A stretch of DNA of 52,582 nucleotides from a virus: positions 1-52,582 of IMG/VR virus record IMGVR_UViG_3300023284_000581. One strand, written 5' to 3'. Position 1 is the first letter of the stretch. Every line of letters starts with the position of its first letter. Below the pieces are notes generated by a model that saw only the letters and a list, made by a program, of their open reading frames with translations, made no database searches and was not told where the DNA came from. A program made the position numbers and the translations under genes. Of this stretch, positions 2,458 through 51,061 are shown piece by piece.

Positions 2458-3146
2458 TGGCTCGCAACTTCGACGGCATAGACGATCACCTGGAGGTCGG
2501 CGATGTTCCGGCCCTGCGATTTCTGGGCGGTTCTGCGGATAAGATGTCGATCTCGGTGTGGGTCAAGATCGCATCCAAGACCGCCGAGAAGAAGGTGGTG
2601 GCCAAGTGGGAAGATGAACCTGATGAAACTCAGCGCAGCTATCTTTTAACAATTGACACTGGCGATAATGACACTCCCCGCTTCGCTGTTACCAATGCGA
2701 GCGGCACCGTTGCGATCACGAGCGCGACGACCAATATGGTCATCGGGACGTGGCATCACCTCGCCGGAACTTACGATGGGGCGAACGTCCGGATCTACGT
2801 CGATGGACTAGAGGAAGGTTCGGCTGCATTGACCGGTGCTATTAAATCAACCACAGCCGTAGTTAGGGTTGGCAGCGGTTCAGGGGGTCCCACCGTAGAA
2901 AACCCAATGCATGGCGACATTGGACATCTTGCGGCGTGGGACGTCGCGCTGAGCCCGGGTGAAGTGCAAACATTGGCGACGGGCCTTTCGCCGCTGAGAA
3001 TTAACAGAGCGAACCTAACGTTCTACGGTCCGATCAACGGCCAGTCGCCTGGGCTAGATGTGGTTGGCAGCCTTCCCTTGACAGTAACGGGAACGACCGT
3101 CAGCGAAGAACCCCCGATCCCCAATAGCATTGTGTGCCCGGGATGA
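2457..3146 (+). CDS. LamG-like concanavalin A fold protein
   Basis: This 229-residue protein opens with the typical LamG/laminin-G-like start (FDGIDDHLEVGD) followed by SISVWVKI, GTWHHLAGTYDGANVRIYVDG and a C-terminal GHLAAWDVALSPGEV strand set. Together these form the jelly-roll core at about residues 5-165. Such domains bind carbohydrate on virions or host surfaces. Lying among virion genes, it is likely a capsid-surface adhesin or fibre head. No signal peptide. It overlaps its upstream neighbour by one base. Confidence 0.85.
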   Translation: MARNFDGIDDHLEVGDVPALRFLGGSADKMSISVWVKIASKTAEKKVVAKWEDEPDETQRSYLLTIDTGDNDTPRFAVTNASGTVAITSATTNMVIGTWHHLAGTYDGANVRIYVDGLEEGSAALTGAIKSTTAVVRVGSGSGGPTVENPMHGDIGHLAAWDVALSPGEVQTLATGLSPLRINRANLTFYGPINGQSPGLDVVGSLPLTVTGTTVSEEPPIPNSIVCPG

Positions 3147-3147
3147 A

Positions 3148-4902
3148 ATGACTGAAACTATCGCCGACAAAATCGCAAACGGCACGCCCCTCGACTTGAT
3201 GGAGAAGAAGACGGTCGTGGATTCGTGGGACGGGCTGTCGCCCGATCAGCGCGTTCGATATGGCGGTGATGTCGGGTTGCGGTGGATGCAGAAGACGATC
3301 GAGCAGGATGGCAAGAACCTGGGCTCGGGTTTGGTCGATAAATTCCTGAAGACTGGCAAGGTCGGATCGAACAAGGTCACGCGCCTGCCCGGGGAGTCGG
3401 TAGACGAGTGCGTTGAGCGTGCGGTCCCGCTACTGATCAACGAGGGCATGGAGCAGGACGAGGCGGTGGCGGTCGCCCACTCGATGTGCGAGAAATGTAT
3501 CAAGGCCAAGGGCCCCGAACAGTTCGCCCAGTGGGTGGCCGATCAGGGCGATAAGGTCGAAGCTGCTTGGATGCGCGGGATGCAGGTATTTGTCAGTATG
3601 CCCGCCAGTGAAGGCCAGGAAGACTTCGAAGATGTAATCCACGAACTGCAGGAGCTGCTTGGCGATGATTACATGGTGGACGTGCAGACCGAAGCCGAGC
3701 CGACCGAGGGCGAGGGCTGGGAACGGGTGAAGTACAACGGGGAAGACGAGGATGAGAAGCAAAAGCGATGGACCCGAAAGGAATTCTACCGCGATGAGCT
3801 TACGCCGCTTGGCCGTTGGATGTATGACTGGGGCGGCGACAGCCAGGAGATATTGATCCTTAAACCGCCATCGAATATCGGCGCTGAGCCTGATCCAAAC
3901 AGGACGGTCGAAAAGTTCCTACTGTCCCAAGCCAAAGCGGCTTGGCGTGCCAAAGTCGAAGCCGCCGAAGACATCCGCGACGAAGAGCCCGACGCGCCGA
4001 TCATTCGCCTCGCTCGCGGATTGGCCGACATCTTCGCACGACAAGAGGCTGAGGTTCTGGCCGCTGTGGTCGAGTCAAACAAGGGTAAAAAGTCCGTCCG
4101 CTTCAAGATCAACCAGGGCGACATCGACCGCATCCTCCAGATTATCAGCAGCTTTGATGACGAGATTATCGACCTGATGGGGCCGTTCGCCGAGGGCATG
4201 GTTGGGCTGGGCGGCGATGCTGGCATTGTCCGACTAAACGATCAGTTTGGTCGGCTTGTCGAGGGCGACCCCGACGCGCCGGTCATCGCCGCCTTCGACG
4301 TGACCAACCCGGAGGTGCAGAAGTTCCTCGAATCCTACGCCATTCAGTTGACCGATCAGGTACAACAGCAGTCGGCCGATGCGATCAACCGGGTGCTGCA
4401 ACAGTCGCTCGAAGAGGGCGCGACGACCGCCACGATGGCCAAGCGCATCCAGGAGACGGGCCGGTTCAGCATCGCGCAGGCTGAGCGGATTGCCCGGACC
4501 GAATCGGCGCGGGCGTATGTGTCGGGACAGGATGAAAGTTGGAAGCAGAGCGGCGTTGTGGTTGGAACCCGTTGGCTCCTTGCGCCAGGCGCATGCCCGA
4601 TTTGCCAAGCTGCAGCCGCCGTATTCAACTCGACGGCCAACGGTGTGCCTGCTGGTGAAGCAGCATTAAAGAAAGGCCAGACGCTTTCGTTGCCAGGCGG
4701 CGGTACGTTCACGATTGGTTTTATCGACCTGACTGGTCCCCCGATCCACCCGCATGACCGCTGCGATAAGGTCGCGGTGCTGACCACTGATGCCGAAACC
4801 GCGAAGGCGATAAGCAAGTGGTTCGATGAATACGCGGAGACCGGTAAGTATCCGGCGCCGATCAAGGTCAAGTTGTATCGGTTTGTCCGTAAGGCGGCGT
4901 AA
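3148..4902 (+). CDS. Mu gpF-like head morphogenesis protein
   Basis: A 584-residue minor head protein. The C-terminal third carries the Mu F domain signature: ERIARTESARAYVSGQDESW, then a Cys pair in APGACPICQ, then PPIHPHDRCDKV. Such proteins act with portal in head assembly. The N-terminal half has a Cys-containing acidic segment (SVDECVERAVPLLINEGM, SMCEKC) and a long acidic charged region. I chose ATG at 3148. A TTG six codons upstream overlaps the LamG gene and has no better ribosome site. The stop overlaps the next ATG. Confidence 0.85.
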   Translation: MTETIADKIANGTPLDLMEKKTVVDSWDGLSPDQRVRYGGDVGLRWMQKTIEQDGKNLGSGLVDKFLKTGKVGSNKVTRLPGESVDECVERAVPLLINEGMEQDEAVAVAHSMCEKCIKAKGPEQFAQWVADQGDKVEAAWMRGMQVFVSMPASEGQEDFEDVIHELQELLGDDYMVDVQTEAEPTEGEGWERVKYNGEDEDEKQKRWTRKEFYRDELTPLGRWMYDWGGDSQEILILKPPSNIGAEPDPNRTVEKFLLSQAKAAWRAKVEAAEDIRDEEPDAPIIRLARGLADIFARQEAEVLAAVVESNKGKKSVRFKINQGDIDRILQIISSFDDEIIDLMGPFAEGMVGLGGDAGIVRLNDQFGRLVEGDPDAPVIAAFDVTNPEVQKFLESYAIQLTDQVQQQSADAINRVLQQSLEEGATTATMAKRIQETGRFSIAQAERIARTESARAYVSGQDESWKQSGVVVGTRWLLAPGACPICQAAAAVFNSTANGVPAGEAALKKGQTLSLPGGGTFTIGFIDLTGPPIHPHDRCDKVAVLTTDAETAKAISKWFDEYAETGKYPAPIKVKLYRFVRKAA

Positions 4903-8368: not shown

Positions 8369-8442
8369 GCGAAGACGAAAGCCGCAGTGCTGTGCTTTTG
8401 CGCAGCGGGCATTCGTATTCCACCCATTCGGAGACCGGACAG

Positions 8443-9918
8443 ATGAAACTCAAGCAATTCCTAGCTGTCATCAAACTTGAAATGAAGGGCGGCGCGACGT
8501 TTGACGAGGCCAAAAAGAAGGCTGTCGTCATGCTTGACGGTGATGCCATCCTTGACGAAACCGGCGCGGAGGTCAGCGTTGACCAGATTCAACTGATAAC
8601 AACGGCCCCGGCCAAGCGCGAAGATGAAACCGAAGAGGAGAAAGCCAAGCGCGAAGATGAGGAAGAGTTGAAGCGCAAACTACAGGACGAAGAGGAAGAG
8701 GAGGAAGACCCTGCCAAGGGCAAAATTTATCAGTTCACTGATAAGCAGCTCGATAAGTTCATCAACGCCAAGGCCAAAGCCGACCACGCCGCAGCCGCCA
8801 GCCAGACCAACAAGGCCACGCAGATCGGTATCATTAGCGCTGGCGATGTCACCGGTGGCGGCCCGCGCAATGATCTAGCCAAGACAACTGGCGGGTTTAA
8901 GTGCCTTGGCGACCAAGCCCGGGCAATCCATCAGTATGTGATGGACCCGATCAACCTGGACCCACGGCTCAAGTCCTTCAGCGGCAAATCCACACCCACC
9001 AATGTTTCGGTCGGGCAAGTTGGCTCCGATGGCGGCTTTTCGATCGCCCCGGATTTTCTCGCAGAACTCCAAGGCCATGCGTTTGATGAAAATTCCATTT
9101 TCGCCCTTTGCCGCCAACTGAACACCAGCGGCAACAGCCTGGAACTACCCAAGGATGAGACCGTTCCCTGGGGAACCGATGGCGTGCAGGTTAACTGGAC
9201 CGCCGAAAACGTCGGCATCACAGATAGCAAGTTGAAGATCGGCGCCATCGACATCAAGCTGCACAAGCTCGCCGCTCTGGTGCCTGTTACCAATGAATTA
9301 CTCGAAGACAGCGCCCTGAACCTGGGTTCGTATCTTAACGACACGACCCCGCGCAAGATCCGCTACAAGGTCGATGACGCGATTGTTAACGGCAGCGGCG
9401 CTGGTCAACCGCTGGGCATCCGCAACAGTGGCGCAATCAAAACTGTCACCCGCACGACCGCCACGGGCATCGCGATCGATGAGATCGCCGACCTCATGGC
9501 CGCTGTTCCGTCATGGTCAATCAATAGCGCAACATTCCTGAGCCACACCACGGTCCTACCCGACATCGTTAAGGCGCAGATCGGTAACTTCCCGGTATTC
9601 ATGGCTCCCGGCGCGCTGGAGACCAAAGGGTTGCCCATGGGCCTGATGGGGCGGCCGCTCCTGGTCCATGAAGTGGCCCAAGCTCGGGACAATGCCGGCG
9701 ATCTGGCCTTGCATGATTTCTCACAATATATTTGCGTGACCAAGACGGTTAGCGGCGGAATCCAAGGTCAGATGTCGGTTCACCTGTACTTCGATCGCGA
9801 TGTATCAGCGTTCCGTTTCACCATGCGAATCGGTGGCCAGCCGTGGCTAACCTCGACCATCGCGCAAGACAACGGCGGTGGCACCATCAGCCCGTTCAGT
9901 GAAATCGGCGCTACCTAA
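8443..9918 (+). CDS. Major capsid protein, HK97 fold
   Basis: A 491-residue precursor. Residues 1-110 form an acidic, helical delta/scaffold region (coiled, Glu-rich at 58-90), removed by the prohead protease in this family. The shell domain follows, with VGSDGGFSIAPDFL at about 193-206, then LVPVTNELLEDSAL, the Asp/Gly-rich A-domain and a C-terminal DRDVSAFRFTMRIGGQPW. GGAG stands 10 nt before ATG 8443; a longer reading has no ribosome site. Confidence 0.93.
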   Translation: MKLKQFLAVIKLEMKGGATFDEAKKKAVVMLDGDAILDETGAEVSVDQIQLITTAPAKREDETEEEKAKREDEEELKRKLQDEEEEEEDPAKGKIYQFTDKQLDKFINAKAKADHAAAASQTNKATQIGIISAGDVTGGGPRNDLAKTTGGFKCLGDQARAIHQYVMDPINLDPRLKSFSGKSTPTNVSVGQVGSDGGFSIAPDFLAELQGHAFDENSIFALCRQLNTSGNSLELPKDETVPWGTDGVQVNWTAENVGITDSKLKIGAIDIKLHKLAALVPVTNELLEDSALNLGSYLNDTTPRKIRYKVDDAIVNGSGAGQPLGIRNSGAIKTVTRTTATGIAIDEIADLMAAVPSWSINSATFLSHTTVLPDIVKAQIGNFPVFMAPGALETKGLPMGLMGRPLLVHEVAQARDNAGDLALHDFSQYICVTKTVSGGIQGQMSVHLYFDRDVSAFRFTMRIGGQPWLTSTIAQDNGGGTISPFSEIGAT

Positions 9919-19614: not shown

Positions 19615-19632
19615 CCCGTTTTCTCCCCTCCG

Positions 19633-19669
19633 GGAGTCGTTTGCCACGACCGGCAAACGGCTCCTTTTT
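19633..19669 (+). terminator. Strong intrinsic terminator of the late operon
   Basis: A 13-bp stem (GGAGTCGTTTGCC with GGCAAACGGCTCC, one G-U pair) closes a 6-nt loop and is followed by five T. It stands 18 nt after the last late gene. Confidence 0.92.
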
Positions 19670-19677
19670 GCTATAAT
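19669..19677 (+). promoter_or_regulatory. Extended -10 TGC-TATAAT
   Basis: It matches the extended -10 form, with no -35. Its transcript would run at once into the second hairpin, so it may be fortuitous or give only short RNAs. Confidence 0.25.
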
Positions 19678-19706
19678 AGCCCTATCCGCCGATAGGCGGG
19701 GCTTTT
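19678..19706 (+). terminator. Second, tandem terminator-like hairpin
   Basis: CCGCC-GATA-GGCGG is extended by AGCC/GGCT after a four-base bulge and followed by TTTTA. Together with the hairpin just upstream it insulates the late operon. Confidence 0.6.
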
Positions 19707-19750
19707 ATATGCGCCCCTTGTCATCCCAGTCCAAATCCGCCACAATGCCA

Positions 19751-19835
19751 GTGTTACACCCTTCAACTTGAATATCTGAACGGCCGTGCTCCGCCGGTGA
19801 CTTTTCTTCGGAAGGGTGTAACACATCGGCGGAGC
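19751..19835 (+). other. Interleaved inverted repeats (a-b-a'-b'), pseudoknot or operator element
   Basis: Arm a, GTGTTACACCCTTC (19751-19764), pairs perfectly with a' (19811-19824). Arm b, GCTCCGCCG (19788-19796), pairs perfectly with b' (19827-19835). The order a-b-a'-b' describes an RNA pseudoknot or two mutually exclusive hairpins. It ends 21 nt before the start of the next small gene. The core GTTACACC also occurs in the operator region at 22,294, so a DNA-binding role for a/a' is an alternative. Confidence 0.7.
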
Positions 19836-19856
19836 CATTGCGCATTGAGGGGCGTG

Positions 19857-20087
19857 ATGGATAAGCAAGAGGCTGAAATTAGGCGAATCAAGCGCAAGCT
19901 CGCTCCTGTTAAAGCGTGTCTCGATGAAGCGCTCAGGGGCCTGCCTGTCGGTACGGCGGTTGTTGAAGGTGAGCATTATCGATACTTCATTGTCCGCAAG
20001 GATCTGAAAGACTTTTACGGTACGCCGTTGGCCGACGCGCTCCGTATCCAATTGCTGGCGATGCGCGACGACTTGGCGGGAAAATAG
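19857..20087 (+). CDS. Small hypothetical protein behind a structured leader
   Basis: A 76-residue soluble protein: basic helix IRRIKRKLAPVKACLDEALR, then beta strands (VVEGEHYRYFIVRK) and a helix (PLADALRIQLLAMRDDL). A GAGGGG site precedes ATG 19857. A GTG 20 codons upstream would place arms a' and b' inside the gene. Unknown family. Its stop codon touches the three-way-junction element. Confidence 0.6.
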   Translation: MDKQEAEIRRIKRKLAPVKACLDEALRGLPVGTAVVEGEHYRYFIVRKDLKDFYGTPLADALRIQLLAMRDDLAGK

Positions 20088-20168
20088 GCAGCCCACTGAA
20101 CAGCCGCGGCTACTGTCGCGGCAACCCAAGCAGGACGTCCCCTGCAAAGGTTTTGTTCATGGGCTGCC
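20087..20168. ncRNA. Three-way-junction element between convergent genes
   Basis: P1 pairs 20087-20102 with 20154-20168: 15 bp with one bulged C at 20096. Inside it are P2 (GCCGCG/CGCGGC, 20103-20108 with 20117-20122) and P3 (GCAGG/CCTGC, 20130-20134 with 20141-20145). P2 abuts P1. The element exactly fills the space between the + stop and the minus stop. It could be a processed RNA, an unusual two-way terminator (T-rich on both sides) or a small mobile element with 15-bp terminal inverted repeats. Confidence 0.55.
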
Positions 20169-20906
20169 TTATTTCTTATGGGCTATTTTGATGATTTTAC
20201 AATCAACAAGGGATATGGAGTACGCCCGCCACCTGTCGCCTATTCGATGATTTACCTTTTTTATCGTACCTTCAAGAATAATTAAATCACCTTTTTTGAC
20301 ATTGGCTAATTGATCAATGTATTTGGTTGAGATCAAGCATTCAAGATCGCAGTGAATTCCTCTTCCTGAAATACTCAGAGATGGTGGCTTGCTGAATGCC
20401 GGCCAATTTGCTTTAAGTGGATTGCCTTTCAGGTAAAAGCCTTTTCCGATCACCCCTCGACTATTGACTTTCGATGCACCCCCTTTTGTATGGAACGTGA
20501 CTCTAATCGCTTTGCCTATCGACTTCATCTTTTTTTCTTGTGAATCGATCCGGTCTTGATAAATATCATTGGGGCTTTGGCCTACAGGTGGCAATACGCC
20601 AGTGGGAAAGGCCTTTGCCAATGCTTCAAACGATGGGATAATGCCCTCTTTCAGGGGTGCGGGAATCGGTTGCTTGCCGCCTCCCAGCGCCTTCACCTGC
20701 GCCACCAGCTTGGCCACCTGCGCCCGCAGCCGCGCGTTCTCAGCCTTGAGCTTAGCCAGTTCGCCCTTGGTGTCCTTGGTCTTGCCCTTATTGAGGATCG
20801 CCTGCGCCGCCCTTTGCCGCGCGGCCCGCGCCTCGACTTCGGCGGGGGTGTCGGCCAGGGTGGCGGTGGCGAGGATCATTCCTATTAGAATTGCCCGGGT
20901 AATCAT
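20169..20906 (-). CDS. Secreted coiled-coil / OB-fold-like protein
   Basis: A 245-residue protein with a signal peptide (ITRAILIGMILATATLADTP). An Ala/Lys/Leu coiled coil follows (KLKAENARLRAQVAKLVAQV at about 52-71). A C-terminal domain follows, with VKKGDLIILEGTIKKVNHRI and a strand set like an OB-fold (tRNA_anti-like) domain. Minus strand, in the control region, so probably a lysogeny-expressed moron acting in the periplasm or outside the cell. Substrate unknown. Confidence 0.6.
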   Translation of the reverse strand: MITRAILIGMILATATLADTPAEVEARAARQRAAQAILNKGKTKDTKGELAKLKAENARLRAQVAKLVAQVKALGGGKQPIPAPLKEGIIPSFEALAKAFPTGVLPPVGQSPNDIYQDRIDSQEKKMKSIGKAIRVTFHTKGGASKVNSRGVIGKGFYLKGNPLKANWPAFSKPPSLSISGRGIHCDLECLISTKYIDQLANVKKGDLIILEGTIKKVNHRIGDRWRAYSISLVDCKIIKIAHKK

Positions 20907-22239: not shown

Positions 22240-22299
22240 TTGTGTAATTCTATACACAAATTGTGTACAGAACTGCTTGCATTGTGTAATAAGTTACAC
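22240..22299. promoter_or_regulatory. Operator array of TTGTGTA half-sites
   Basis: Half-sites TTGTGTA/TACACAA occur at 22240, 22253 (inverted), 22261 and 22282. They form a perfect 20-bp palindrome (22240-22259) and an overlapping 15-bp one (22253-22267). GTGTAA-TAAG-TTACAC (22284-22299) lies between the -35 and -10 of the regulator promoter. This layout fits cooperative binding by a ribbon-helix-helix dimer that represses itself. Confidence 0.68.
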
Positions 22300-22305: not shown

Positions 22306-22311
22306 GCGGTC

Positions 22312-22689
22312 ATGGTTAACAGAACAACCGTTGCCGTATCTCGAGAGACGCACGACAAGCTCAAGCTGATCGCCGAGCGCGATAGCCGGACAATCAGCGG
22401 AGTAGTTGCTGTTCTTGTACGTGATGACCTGGCGGCCCACGCGAACGGCAAAGGTGTTGGCAATAGCAAAGCATCCCAGTCCTCCTTAAACGAAGAACCG
22501 GTCAGCCCAGACCGAGATATGTCGTCGGCTCCATCCGCGCCAACGGAAAGCGAGCCGGTCAACGGCGAGCGTGGCAGTGACCACGACGCCGACAGCGACA
22601 AAAGCGAATCATCCGTGATTGAAACAGCCGCCCACCAAGGCGGATCAGATACAGACCGCGGGCCCGAATCGGGTGGCGGTCGAACTTAG
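22312..22689 (+). CDS. Ribbon-helix-helix transcription regulator
   Basis: A 125-residue protein. Residues 1-45 fit the RHH fold: strand RTTVAVSRETHDKLKLIAER, then RTISGVVAVLVRDDL. The remainder is acidic, Ser/Asp/Glu-rich and probably disordered. As first gene of the early operon, overlapped by its own operator array, it is a candidate for the lysis-lysogeny or early-gene repressor. ATG 22312 has no Shine-Dalgarno and a -10 placed for leaderless mRNA. The reading from 22240 would run through the operators and is rejected. Confidence 0.75.
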   Translation: MVNRTTVAVSRETHDKLKLIAERDSRTISGVVAVLVRDDLAAHANGKGVGNSKASQSSLNEEPVSPDRDMSSAPSAPTESEPVNGERGSDHDADSDKSESSVIETAAHQGGSDTDRGPESGGGRT

Positions 22690-28567: not shown

Positions 28568-28693
28568 TGGTGGCTGGTAGCTCAGTTGGTAGAGCGGCTG
28601 CGGAAGCAGTGCCACCAGAAGGACGCCTGGAACAGTCGCGAATGGTTCAGGCTATCGACTTCTTAAGCGCAGGTTCGAGTCCTGCCCAGCCCA
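28568..28693 (+). tRNA. tRNA-like element without an anticodon loop
   Basis: Parts of a tRNA are clear. The acceptor pairs GGCTGG (28572-28577) with CCAGCC (28686-28691). There is a D-arm GCTC-AGTTGGTA-GAGC and a T-arm GCAGG-TTCGAGT-CCTGC followed by acceptor and A73, with no CCA. Where the anticodon arm belongs stands GCTGC-GGAA-GCAGT with a GNRA-like four-base loop. About 58 nt follow that form a long arm (AGAAG/CTTCT enclosing CCTG(g)AAC/GTTCAGG). TGGTGGC (28568) can also pair with GCCACCA (28611). It is either a decayed or interrupted tRNA gene or a tRNA mimic. Confidence 0.5.
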
Positions 28694-41986: not shown

Positions 41987-43240
41987 ATGAGCCAAGCAAC
42001 GATCCAACCCGAGAACATGATGGACGCGGTAAAAATCGCCGCGGCCCGCATGGGTATGGTGCCGTCCCGAAAGGGAGGCAATGTCTTGAGCGCACCGAAA
42101 GAGCGAACGGATCGGCCCGGCACCTGGTACTACAGCTACAAGGATCATCGCGGTCGGTGGCGCAAGAAGTCGGGGTTCGCGTCCGACGGCGCCGCCTGGG
42201 CCGACAAGATCGTTACGGAGTCCGCGCTGCAGAACGTCAAGCTTGGTCTCGAGACACCCGAGCAATACGAGCAGGCGCGCGATATGGCGATCCCGCTGAT
42301 CGATCTGGCTGGGCGCAAGCACAATCTGGAGATCGACCAGGGTAAGCGCCGGGGCGATCGCAAGGATGACGATCTTCTTATCCAGTTCCGTGACCACATG
42401 ACGGGCGAGGGCCGGAGCCGGATGCACGTCCGCTGGTTCACCCGGTACGCCGAGGACATGATCACGACCTGCCGGTTCAAGAGCCTGGGGGACATTGAAC
42501 CCAACGAGGTCGATAAGCAACTCGCCAGGCGGATCCAGAACGGCGCCAGCTTCGCGACCCGCAACCGCTATCTATCAGCCATCAAGGCGTTCGTGAACTG
42601 GGCGGTCGAGCGCCGGATGCTCCAGGCCAACCCGCTCAAGTGCCTGCACAAGCTCAATGAACGGAAAGACCCACGCCGGCCGAACCGGGCGCTGACCGAG
42701 GATCAGTTCGAGAGCCTGATCGCCACGGCGCCAGCCCGTTACCGCGTTTTCTACATGGTTTCAGCGTTGACCGGTGGGCGCTGGTCCGAGATCGCCCGGC
42801 TGGAATGGCAGCATGTGGACTTCGATCGCCGCGAAATCTACTACGCGCCTAACATCACCAAGACGGGCGAACCCGGTACGGTATCGATGAACCGCGAACT
42901 TACCCGGGCTCTTAGGGAATTTCGGCCAGTGGGTGCCAGCCTGGGCGACAAGATATTCGGCAATCAGCCCCAGCTACTGACCTGGAAGAAACACCTGAAA
43001 ACTGCGGGCATTCCGCACCAGGACGGCGCGGGCCGAATCGCCGATCGCAAGTGCCTGCGGAGTTCGTTCGCGTCATGGCTGATCGCAAAGGGCGTGCTCC
43101 CGCGCGAGCTACAGATCCTGATGCGCCACGCGGACATCAGTACGACAATGCGTTACTACTCAGATCCCACGCTGGTCGATACCGCGTCGGCCGTCCAGTT
43201 GCTGGGCAAGAAGGTCAAGAAGAAGAAAGGGGTGGCGTAG
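41987..43240 (+). CDS. int: Tyrosine recombinase integrase
   Basis: A 417-residue integrase. The catalytic set is Arg265 in GGRWSEIARLEW, Lys292 in ITKTGEPG, Arg358 in KCLRSSFASWL (the usual His three residues earlier is Lys355), His381 in LMRHADISTT and Tyr390. The N-terminal part has an AP2-like arm (GTWYYSYKDHRGRWRKKSG) and a SAM-like core-binding domain (about 130-215). The attP-like tRNA segment lies 380 bp downstream. No Shine-Dalgarno is seen ahead of the ATG. Confidence 0.92.
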   Translation: MSQATIQPENMMDAVKIAAARMGMVPSRKGGNVLSAPKERTDRPGTWYYSYKDHRGRWRKKSGFASDGAAWADKIVTESALQNVKLGLETPEQYEQARDMAIPLIDLAGRKHNLEIDQGKRRGDRKDDDLLIQFRDHMTGEGRSRMHVRWFTRYAEDMITTCRFKSLGDIEPNEVDKQLARRIQNGASFATRNRYLSAIKAFVNWAVERRMLQANPLKCLHKLNERKDPRRPNRALTEDQFESLIATAPARYRVFYMVSALTGGRWSEIARLEWQHVDFDRREIYYAPNITKTGEPGTVSMNRELTRALREFRPVGASLGDKIFGNQPQLLTWKKHLKTAGIPHQDGAGRIADRKCLRSSFASWLIAKGVLPRELQILMRHADISTTMRYYSDPTLVDTASAVQLLGKKVKKKKGVA

Positions 43241-43597: not shown

Positions 43598-43695
<98 letters not shown>

Positions 43696-44649: not shown

Positions 44650-44805
44650 ATGGACAAGAAGGGCAACATGAAGATAATCCAACTGAAGCCAAGCGAACAG
44701 GCACTGGAATTCGCCCAGTGGATGCGGCGCGTCCGCGAATTGGAGAAGCAAATGTTTCGATCATTTCTCTTGACCGAAGATCAGATTAAACGCCCTAACC
44801 ATTGA
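44650..44805 (+). CDS. Small hypothetical protein (51 residues)
   Basis: A 51-residue helical, charged protein (LKPSEQALEFAQWMRRVREL, EKQMFRSFLLTEDQ). Supported by a TATAAT box spaced for leaderless transcription and by ordinary codon use. Its stop lies inside the -35 box of the next promoter. Unknown. Confidence 0.5.
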   Translation: MDKKGNMKIIQLKPSEQALEFAQWMRRVRELEKQMFRSFLLTEDQIKRPNH

Positions 44806-44831
44806 CATCCATCCCGCGCGCTCTGTACGAT
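44802..44831 (+). promoter_or_regulatory. Promoter of the lipoprotein gene
   Basis: Consensus TTGACA, an 18-bp spacer and TACGAT. The expected start, about 44838, is the first base of the hairpin leader. Confidence 0.62.
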
Positions 44832-44837
44832 TCAGAC

Positions 44838-44890
44838 GTGTAGCACCGGCAGGGAGACCTGCCCATGATGTCAATACGCCGGTGCTACAC
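44838..44890 (+). promoter_or_regulatory. 5' hairpin enclosing the ribosome site and start codon
   Basis: GTGTAGCACCGG (44838-44849) pairs perfectly with CCGGTGCTACAC (44879-44890). Nested inside, GGCAGG-GAGA-CCTGCC (44848-44863) holds the AGGGAG ribosome site, and the ATG at 44865 lies in the outer loop. Folding should silence translation until opened, for example by a protein, temperature or a ligand. The arms could also be a DNA operator. Confidence 0.6.
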
Positions 44891-45308
44891 AACACCGCAC
44901 AAGAACCATCGCGTCAATCTACTCGGCGCGGTGGTTCTTTTTACTTCAATTCTGACCAGCTGCTCGACCTTGACCGTCTACGATTATGCCGAGGCCGGCA
45001 CGGTCATAGCGCTGGTATCGACCCGGGCCACCGTCGATGAGGCGCAGCAGGTCAAGGATCTGGCCGCCGAGCTTGAAGCGGTCGCCCATCTTGATCGCGC
45101 CGCCATCGAGAAGGTCTACGACAGCGGGGTCGCGCGGATCCGCAACGACAAGCTGCGCCTCGCGCTCGAAAAGCTCAAGCCCAAGCTGATCAGCCAGATC
45201 GTCAAGCTCGCTCAGCGCAACCCGCTGGTGCAGATCCGCGTCCATGTTGTTGAGGCCGCCCAGGGAATTCAAAGCGGCTGCACGATCTATATCACGGCGA
45301 AAAGTTAA
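44865..45308 (+). CDS. Lipoprotein, possible outer spanin
   Basis: A 147-residue protein with a signal peptide and lipobox (LLGAVVLFTSILTSCSTL, lipidated Cys about 33). The mature part is helical (VDEAQQVKDLAAELEAVAHL, LRLALEKLKPKLISQIVKLA) and ends with a beta/Cys segment. Position with a membrane protein and a lipase suggests outer-membrane spanin in lysis. Its length is more than usual for spanins. Expression appears gated by the leader hairpin. Confidence 0.55.
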   Translation: MMSIRRCYTTPHKNHRVNLLGAVVLFTSILTSCSTLTVYDYAEAGTVIALVSTRATVDEAQQVKDLAAELEAVAHLDRAAIEKVYDSGVARIRNDKLRLALEKLKPKLISQIVKLAQRNPLVQIRVHVVEAAQGIQSGCTIYITAKS

Positions 45309-45314
45309 ACGATT

Positions 45315-45388
45315 GCAGTGTGGAGAAGCGGTCTATCTCGTCGCGCTCATAACGCGAATGTCGCAGGTTCGAATCCTGTCACTGCTAT
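45315..45388 (+). tRNA. tRNA-Met (CAT)
   Basis: A full cloverleaf: acceptor GCAGTG/CACTGC with a 1:72 T-T mismatch, D-arm GAGA...TCTC, anticodon arm TCGCG-CTCATAA-CGCGA with CAT, variable ATGTC, T-arm GCAGG-TTCGAAT-CCTGT, A73. CCA is not encoded. The anticodon stem lacks the three G-C pairs of initiators, so elongator Met, or Ile2 if the C is lysidinylated. Confidence 0.87.
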
Positions 45389-45392
45389 TCCG

Positions 45393-46151
45393 ATGAAACA
45401 CGAAACCCTCGCACGCATGGCTTTAGCCGCTTACCTGCCGTTGGAACCGGCCGAGTCGCTGTTCATCGACGACGGTTGGTCACTCAAGCTGATCGAACGC
45501 AACGAGACGCAGTGCATGGTGTTCAAGGGCGCGGACGATCTGGTGTTTGCGTTCCGCGGTACCGAGCGAAAGTGGCGGGACATCCGGGCGGACCTGGATC
45601 TTCGCTGGAAACCGATCGACGGCGCGGGTCATGTCTACCGGGGTTTCCACGATGCGATGTGTCAGGTGCGAGACGAACTGTTTGCCCTGGCTGACCGCGC
45701 GGGTGGGCGGAAAGTCAGTGTCACGGGGCACAGTCTGGGTGGGGCTGAGTCGTATCTTTTTGCGTGCTTCCTTGAACGCAGCGGTGTCCGAGTCGATCAA
45801 GTCGTGACTTTTGGGGCCCCCCGACCTGGCGATCGTCGATACCGCGACGTTTACAACAACTGGCTTGTTCATAAGACCTATCGCTACATGCTGTTTACCG
45901 ATCCGGTGTGCCTCGTGCCATCCAATATTCGCGGTGGGCGACACGTCGGTGGCAACTTCGCGTGGTGGACCGGCCTGCGCTGGCGCTACAAGTTTCAGTG
46001 GTGGCGCGCGGCGATTGTCGGGACGGTCGTGCGGTTGCTGCTCGGCTTGGGTTCAAGCCATCCCATGAAGGGCTACGTGGATGTGCTGCGCCGCCATGAG
46101 GACGAGATTGCTCTGAACGGAAACGGTGCGGTGCTGGCGGGGGGTGAATGA
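45393..46151 (+). CDS. Lipase, class 3 type alpha/beta hydrolase
   Basis: A 252-residue enzyme: FAFRGTERKWRDIRADLD (oxyanion region), nucleophile Ser114 in TGHSLGGAES, Asp170 in FTDPVCLVPS and His223 in SSHPMKGYVDVL. No signal peptide. Four bases separate it from the tRNA. A C-terminal hydrophobic stretch (AAIVGTVVRLLLGLG) might touch membrane. In the lysis block it could attack host envelope lipids, as LysB-type esterases do. No peptidoglycan hydrolase is recognisable beside it. Confidence 0.85.
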   Translation: MKHETLARMALAAYLPLEPAESLFIDDGWSLKLIERNETQCMVFKGADDLVFAFRGTERKWRDIRADLDLRWKPIDGAGHVYRGFHDAMCQVRDELFALADRAGGRKVSVTGHSLGGAESYLFACFLERSGVRVDQVVTFGAPRPGDRRYRDVYNNWLVHKTYRYMLFTDPVCLVPSNIRGGRHVGGNFAWWTGLRWRYKFQWWRAAIVGTVVRLLLGLGSSHPMKGYVDVLRRHEDEIALNGNGAVLAGGE

Positions 46152-49645: not shown

Positions 49646-51061
49646 ATGCCGATTACCACCCTCGACACCCCGCCCACCGCTCAAGACAACGTGTACCGCC
49701 CTTACGGCGCTGCCCGCGAGCTATGGCGTGCCCGCGATGAACAGGTCCTGCTCGAGGGTCCGGCCGGTACGGGCAAGACCCGCGCGCTGTGTGAGTACGC
49801 CTTTGCCTTGGCCTGTGAGTATGACGGCTGCCGCATCCTGTTCATCAGGCAGACGCGCGAGTCGATGACCGAATCGGTGCTGGTCACCTGGGAAGAGAAG
49901 GTGGTGCCCGCCCAGCATCCGTGCCTCGTCGGTCCCAAGCGAAACGGGCGGCAGGCCTACGTGTTCCCCAACCGCAGCGAGATCGTGGTGGCGGGCATGA
50001 AATCGAACGGCCGCGACCAATCGGCCAAGATCATGTCCACCGAGTTCGATCTGATATGCGTCTTTGAGGCCACCGAGATAGCCGAGGGCGACTTTGAAAA
50101 ACTGACCACACGGCTCCGGAATGGTGTTATCCCGTGGCAACAGATCGTGGCCGACTGCAATCCCGGCGCCACCACCCACTGGCTGAACCGCCGGGCTAAT
50201 GATTCCAAGATGGCCAGGCTGCTATCCCGCCATGAGGACAACCCGGTCCTGTATCGCAACGGCAAGTGGACTGCCGCGGGCGTTAATTACATCGGCAAGC
50301 TGGACGCCCTGACCGGTCCGCGCCGTGAGCGATTGCGGTTCGGGCGCTGGGCAACATCTGAAGGCGTGGTGTATGAGAACTGGGATCCGGCTGTACATCT
50401 GATTGACGCCTTCCCGATTCCAGACGACTGGGAGCGGTATCGGTGCATCGACTTCGGGTACACCAATCCGTTCGTATGCGGCTGGTGGGCGATGGACCCG
50501 GATGGGCGACTCTATCGTTATCGCGAGATTTACCACACCAAGCGCATCGTGGCTGACCATGCTATCCAGATCAAGGACTTAAGTGGCGATGAGCGATTCG
50601 AAGACACCGTAGCCGACCATGACGCGGAGGACCGGGCGACCCTGGACCGAGCGGGTATAGGCACGTCATCGGCCAAGAAGGCGGTCAGGCCTGGAATCGA
50701 CGCGGTGACCGACCGGCTCAAGATCCAAGACGACGGCAAGGCTCGGCTCTACATCTTCAGGGACTGCCTGGTTGAAGTGGATGAGAAACTGCGCGAGGCT
50801 CATAAGCCGATCTGCCTTGCCGAGGAATTCGATAGCTACATCTGGAGAAAGTCAGTCGAGGGAAAGCCGATCAAGGAAGAGCCAGTCAAGACGGACGACC
50901 ACGGCATGGACGAGATGCGCTACATCGTGATGCAGTTGGACGCGACCACCGCGATCGACGCCCGCGTACTCGGCCAGGACCTGGACGATTCAGACCACGA
51001 CCCGTTCGACGAGTACGAAGAGGACTGGTCGGCGGGTCAGCATGAATGGGGAGGGAACTGA
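49646..51061 (+). CDS. terL: Terminase large subunit
   Basis: A 471-residue packaging motor. Walker A GPAGTGKT (38-45), Walker B-type FDLICVFEATEI (Asp135, Glu141), coupling motif CNPGATTHW (171-179), and a nuclease domain opening at CIDFGYTNPF (Asp269), with DHDAEDRAT and the late acidic DDHGMDEMRY. Cuts and drives DNA into the head. The ribosome site is weak. Confidence 0.93.
   Translation: MPITTLDTPPTAQDNVYRPYGAARELWRARDEQVLLEGPAGTGKTRALCEYAFALACEYDGCRILFIRQTRESMTESVLVTWEEKVVPAQHPCLVGPKRNGRQAYVFPNRSEIVVAGMKSNGRDQSAKIMSTEFDLICVFEATEIAEGDFEKLTTRLRNGVIPWQQIVADCNPGATTHWLNRRANDSKMARLLSRHEDNPVLYRNGKWTAAGVNYIGKLDALTGPRRERLRFGRWATSEGVVYENWDPAVHLIDAFPIPDDWERYRCIDFGYTNPFVCGWWAMDPDGRLYRYREIYHTKRIVADHAIQIKDLSGDERFEDTVADHDAEDRATLDRAGIGTSSAKKAVRPGIDAVTDRLKIQDDGKARLYIFRDCLVEVDEKLREAHKPICLAEEFDSYIWRKSVEGKPIKEEPVKTDDHGMDEMRYIVMQLDATTAIDARVLGQDLDDSDHDPFDEYEEDWSAGQHEWGGN

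Follow-up and report, generated by a model that had tools for sequence, protein, structure and literature searches.

Genes and features at the locus

The window, the whole stretch of 52,582 nucleotides of viral DNA that was analysed, contains two convergent genes separated by 81 bases, and the DNA between them can be folded from either strand into a three-armed RNA (Table 1). The 76-aa ORF is the final gene of a plus-strand unit and has no Pfam match; the 245-aa ORF closes a minus-strand cassette of about three genes that runs from 22257 down to 20169. By codon usage each of these frames was the best of its own six, and a competing antisense ORF (19671-20147) scored below the 76-aa frame.

Table 1. 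Coordinates of the intergenic element, its parts and other features of the window
Feature	Position	Strand	Basis
Whole three-way-junction element	20087-20168	either	sequence and folding
Outer stem, left arm (15 pairs, bulged C20096)	20087-20102		folding
Inner hairpin 1 (UACU loop closed by 8 bp on +; 8-nt loop closed by 6 bp on -)	20103-20122		folding
Inner hairpin 2 (4+5 bp in the + RNA, 5+6 bp in the - RNA)	20123-20152		folding
Outer stem, right arm	20154-20168		folding
U-rich tract of + transcript, TTATTTCTT, overlapping the - gene stop codon	20169-20177	+	sequence, tail scan
U-rich tract of - transcript, TATTTTC on -, overlapping the + gene stop codon	20080-20086	-	sequence, tail scan
76-aa ORF ending at the element; Shine-Dalgarno-like GAGGGG before ATG 19857	19857-20087	+	ORF list, codon usage
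245-aa ORF closing the - strand cassette; its start resembles a signal peptide	20169-20906	-	ORF list, codon usage
Interleaved repeats, 14 bp	19751-19764/19811-19824
Interleaved repeats, 11-12 bp	19788-19799/19824-19835
Major head protein	8392-9918
Integrase	41987-43240
Terminase	49646-51061

Two further arrangements lie close to these genes. Shortly before the start of the 76-aa gene, at 19751-19835, two strong inverted repeats interleave; they could form a pseudoknot or two mutually exclusive hairpins (an RNA switch), or could be protein-binding sites, and because the second repeat contains a G-U wobble, RNA of the plus strand is favoured. In the AT-rich divergent promoter region at 22240-22299, the repeat TTGTGTAAT..(A)TACAC occurs twice, 42 bases apart, next to a small ribbon-helix-helix-like gene (22309-22689), and these repeats are likely operators.

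The terminase, head protein and integrase, together with cytosine and adenine DNA methyltransferases that are also encoded in the window, indicate that the virus is probably a temperate phage. Its best eight terminase matches in genome contigs all belonged to Planctomycetota (Singulisphaera, Phycisphaeraceae and others), and several Planctomycetota terminase loci have a head-gene order in common with the window; the host is therefore probably a planctomycete. About 400 bases past the integrase gene, at about 43610-43665 on the minus strand, lies CTTGACTGGGGGTCAAG..GGTTCAAATCC, which we take to be the 3' half of tRNA-Pro(GGG), and this is the likely phage attachment site attP. A tRNA-like gene at 28571-28693 (39.9 bits with Rfam) has normal D and T arms and was missed by ARAGORN; it carries 66 nt at a place where 15 are expected from the model, and may be an unusual or interrupted tRNA. 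The phage gene at 45318-46151 encodes a class-3 lipase domain (Lipase_3, E 1.6e-19); the true start of this gene is probably later, since the longest ORF begins inside a tRNA-Met gene (45313-45388). A candidate small-RNA gene at 44802-44942 consists of a promoter-like TTGACA..TACGAT, a hairpin GTGTAGCACCGGC/GCCGGTGCTACAC (44838-44890) and a strong terminator (44901-44938); it had no Rfam match, and its hairpin arms resemble the arms at 19751/19815 (GTGTWRCACC).

Fold and placement of the element

The plus-strand RNA of the element, folded alone, adopts the structure (((((((((.((((((((((((((....))))))))((((...(((((......)))))...)))).))))))))))))))), and the minus-strand RNA forms the same three-way junction. 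The left arm of the outer stem is made up of 20087-20095 and 20097-20102, the bulged C20096 between them reading G on the other strand. Hairpin 1 is stacked on the outer stem with no gap and abuts hairpin 2, so U20153 is the only unpaired base of an almost perfect junction. The outer stem of 15 bp with a single bulged C, the two enclosed hairpins and the direct stacking of the first of them had all been described in the initial annotation, and sequence and folding agree with that description. When the flanks were included, the outer stem gained the pair 20086-20169 and further A-U pairs, and as single-stranded DNA the element folded as it did as RNA.

Its placement is exact. The element begins at the last base of the plus-strand stop codon (TAG, 20085-20087) and ends at the base before the minus-strand stop codon (TAA, 20171-20169), filling the convergent gap from stop codon to stop codon as had been claimed.

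Stability against chance

Folded alone, the element reached minimum free energies of -52.3 kcal/mol (plus) and -51.8 kcal/mol (minus), corresponding to z-scores of -7.82 and -5.88, with none of 200 shuffles equally stable; with its flanks the scores were -8.3 and -7.3. No other 90-nt stretch of the whole 52.6-kb window is as structured, on either strand. Dinucleotide shuffling of the window, repeated 60 times (3.15 Mb), produced only eight branched stems of at least 15 bp, or about one per 0.4 Mb, and the best shuffled branched stem had -0.51 kcal/mol per nucleotide, compared with -0.64 for the element. We also collected 126 branched stems of at least 12 bp from 3.34 Mb of related DNA (phage, prophage and planctomycete). 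Among these the element had a z-score of -9.0, no other fell below -7.4 among the matches listed, and it alone had a stem of at least 15 bp with a T-rich tail.

Branching as such was a poor guide. An initial baseline had 12% of convergent gaps branched and proved uninformative because shuffled gaps were branched about as often, and the stricter comparison above was made afterwards. By a loose criterion, branching was found in 14% of the gaps between convergent genes and 10% of those between genes of the same direction; among shuffles of these gaps the share was 10-14%. Branching alone is thus common; what sets the element apart is its stability together with its exact placement.

A second branched stem of 15 bp, likewise very stable (z -6.7), is located at 4210-4293, within the long ORF 3130-4902.

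Copies and relatives

A search for repeats of the 82 nt, proposed in the initial annotation, found the element to be single-copy, with no second copy in the record, phages, plasmids, viral contigs or nine kin genomes or records. Rfam gave no match at the gathering score and matches at chance level only at a relaxed threshold, while a one-sequence covariance model matched nothing except the element itself, on both strands, in 1.05 Mb. Protein searches fared similarly: the 245-aa protein had no relative in viral contigs, genome contigs or phages, the 76-aa protein none in phages, and two tail-side proteins none in viral contigs.

Terminase relatives were found at 12 + 80 viral loci and 80 genome loci, which have mainly head, packaging and replication genes in common with the window. 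Nothing adjoining the element was matched at these loci save for a weak methyltransferase match, which left no syntenic copy for alignment. Eight viral contigs contained the outer 9-bp arms separated by an interior of 50-75 nt. The interiors were unrelated and, in both of the two contigs checked by ORF listing, the matches lay within open reading frames; we took them as chance matches.

Known motifs were also considered. From inspection of the sequence alone, an integron attC site was rejected for want of GTTRRRY-type ends, a REP-type element for want of a GTAG head, and a hammerhead ribozyme for want of a CUGAUGA core.

Terminator-like anatomy

In intrinsic terminators, a GC-rich stem measuring no less than about 6-8 bp leads directly into a U-rich tract. 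The element has a stem of 15 bp, with 9 bp (GGCAGCCCA) at its base, and on both strands a U-rich tract directly follows it: UUAUUUCUU in the plus transcript (7 of 9 U, interrupted) and CUAUUUU in the minus transcript (5 of 7 U, interrupted and short). The A/T flanks are complementary and pair with each other. Such complementary A and T tracts mark bidirectional terminators (TransTermHP, PMC1852404; TERMITe, PMC12207403), and here they stand on either side of a stem between convergent genes. The loop departs from the usual form: in place of a short single loop (3-8 nt in our scan), the stem encloses a branched interior of 51 nt. The short-loop scan reported only a partial minus-strand stem at 20107-20088, and a scan for T-tailed stems of any interior recovered the element on both strands. 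Since the stem, the U tracts and the placement agree with a terminator and the short single loop is absent, we class the element as a putative terminator variant.

In stepwise folding of growing plus-strand RNAs, the inner hairpins appeared before the outer stem, whose closure came last, at the U tract. This late closure would suit termination, as the distance that the outer arms must bridge is reduced by the inner hairpins. Intrinsic termination also fits the biology of the phage, which has ordinary long-stem terminators nearby (19632-19665 followed by TTTTT, and 44901-44938).

Interpretation

Judged from this anatomy, we consider it probable, at roughly three in four, that this 82-nt element is an intrinsic terminator acting on transcription in both directions, its loop being branched. 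The near-equal stability of the three-way junction on both strands, and an outer stem that meets a U-rich tract on each, speak for this reading; the 51-nt interior, far above the usual loop length, and the interruption of both U tracts speak against it. Once RNA polymerase had passed the end of either gene, the inner hairpins would form first and draw the distant outer arms together, and the outer stem of 15-16 bp would close as the U-rich tract is synthesised, releasing the transcript. The plus-strand unit would thereby be insulated from the minus-strand cassette, antisense overlap past the element would be held to about ten bases, and both mRNA 3' ends would be protected. The branched shape most likely does no more than fill the loop with structure and has no separate function. 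That the junction itself is functional and couples the plus-strand unit to the minus-strand cassette, either in a protein- or ligand-responsive branched terminator or as a structured 3'-terminal RNA set free from either transcript, seems quite unlikely.

The initial annotation had offered a small RNA, a novel bidirectional terminator or a tiny inverted-repeat element. A functional small RNA, cut from an mRNA 3' end or made from its own promoter and acting in trans or binding a protein, would be in keeping with the great stability and the compact, tRNA-like size of the fold on either strand, and mRNA 3' ends are the source of many small RNAs. However, nothing positive emerged for this proposal: the element had no Rfam match at either threshold, no promoter-like site directly upstream on either strand and no relatives, and nearly all its bases are paired, which leaves little free sequence for base pairing. 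We regard it as unlikely. The inverted-repeat proposal, whether as a small MITE- or REP-like element or as a DNA cruciform site for replication or recombination, draws on the ability of the single-stranded DNA to fold. Elements of the mobile kind occur in several copies, whereas this one is single-copy throughout the collections searched; its flanks are inverted, mutually complementary repeats and not direct ones, hence there is no target duplication. This makes the proposal highly improbable. Of the annotation's three suggestions it is the terminator that gains, from the convergent genes, the U-rich tract after the stem on both strands and the near-equal stability, but at most its branched loop could be called novel, since terminators that act in both directions between convergent genes have long been known.

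Two further possibilities were weighed. If the fold served to stabilise 3' ends by blocking exonucleases, while termination occurred elsewhere or by Rho, its extreme stability would be accounted for and the interrupted U tracts would fit; yet U-rich tracts adjoin the stem on both strands, which is beyond the needs of an exonuclease block, and we consider this explanation very unlikely. A chance fold without function could appeal to the roughly 10% of shuffles of the element itself that were branched with an outer stem of at least 9 bp by the loose criterion. Against it stand z-scores of -6 to -9 at the most structured place of the window, a stability per base above that of every comparable stem in the 3.15 Mb of shuffles and the placement exactly within a convergent gap, and chance is accordingly an extremely improbable account.

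If two-way termination is true, a bidirectional terminator can hold a branched interior of 51 nt, a form that finders built on short loops would miss, and the element would represent a compact natural two-way insulator. If the element does not terminate, its extreme structure needs another explanation.

Comparison with known systems

REP/ERIC-type intergenic repeats are small palindromic elements found in convergent gaps in many copies; the element resembles them in size, palindromic form and location, but differs in having no second copy. It is also like the phage's own terminator at 19632-19665, in which a long GC-rich stem followed by T's ends a plus-strand unit, although that terminator is a simple 14-bp stem with a 6-nt loop and a T tract on the plus side only. 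Bidirectional terminators of convergent genes include the 'X-shaped' class of GeSTer/WebGeSTer. As in the bidirectional intrinsic terminators of TransTermHP (PMC1852404), a GC-rich stem occupies a tail-to-tail gap, preceded by an A-rich and followed by a T-rich tract, and on paper the arrangement works for both strands. The usual stem of this class carries a short single loop, whereas that of the element encloses 51 nt arranged as two hairpins.
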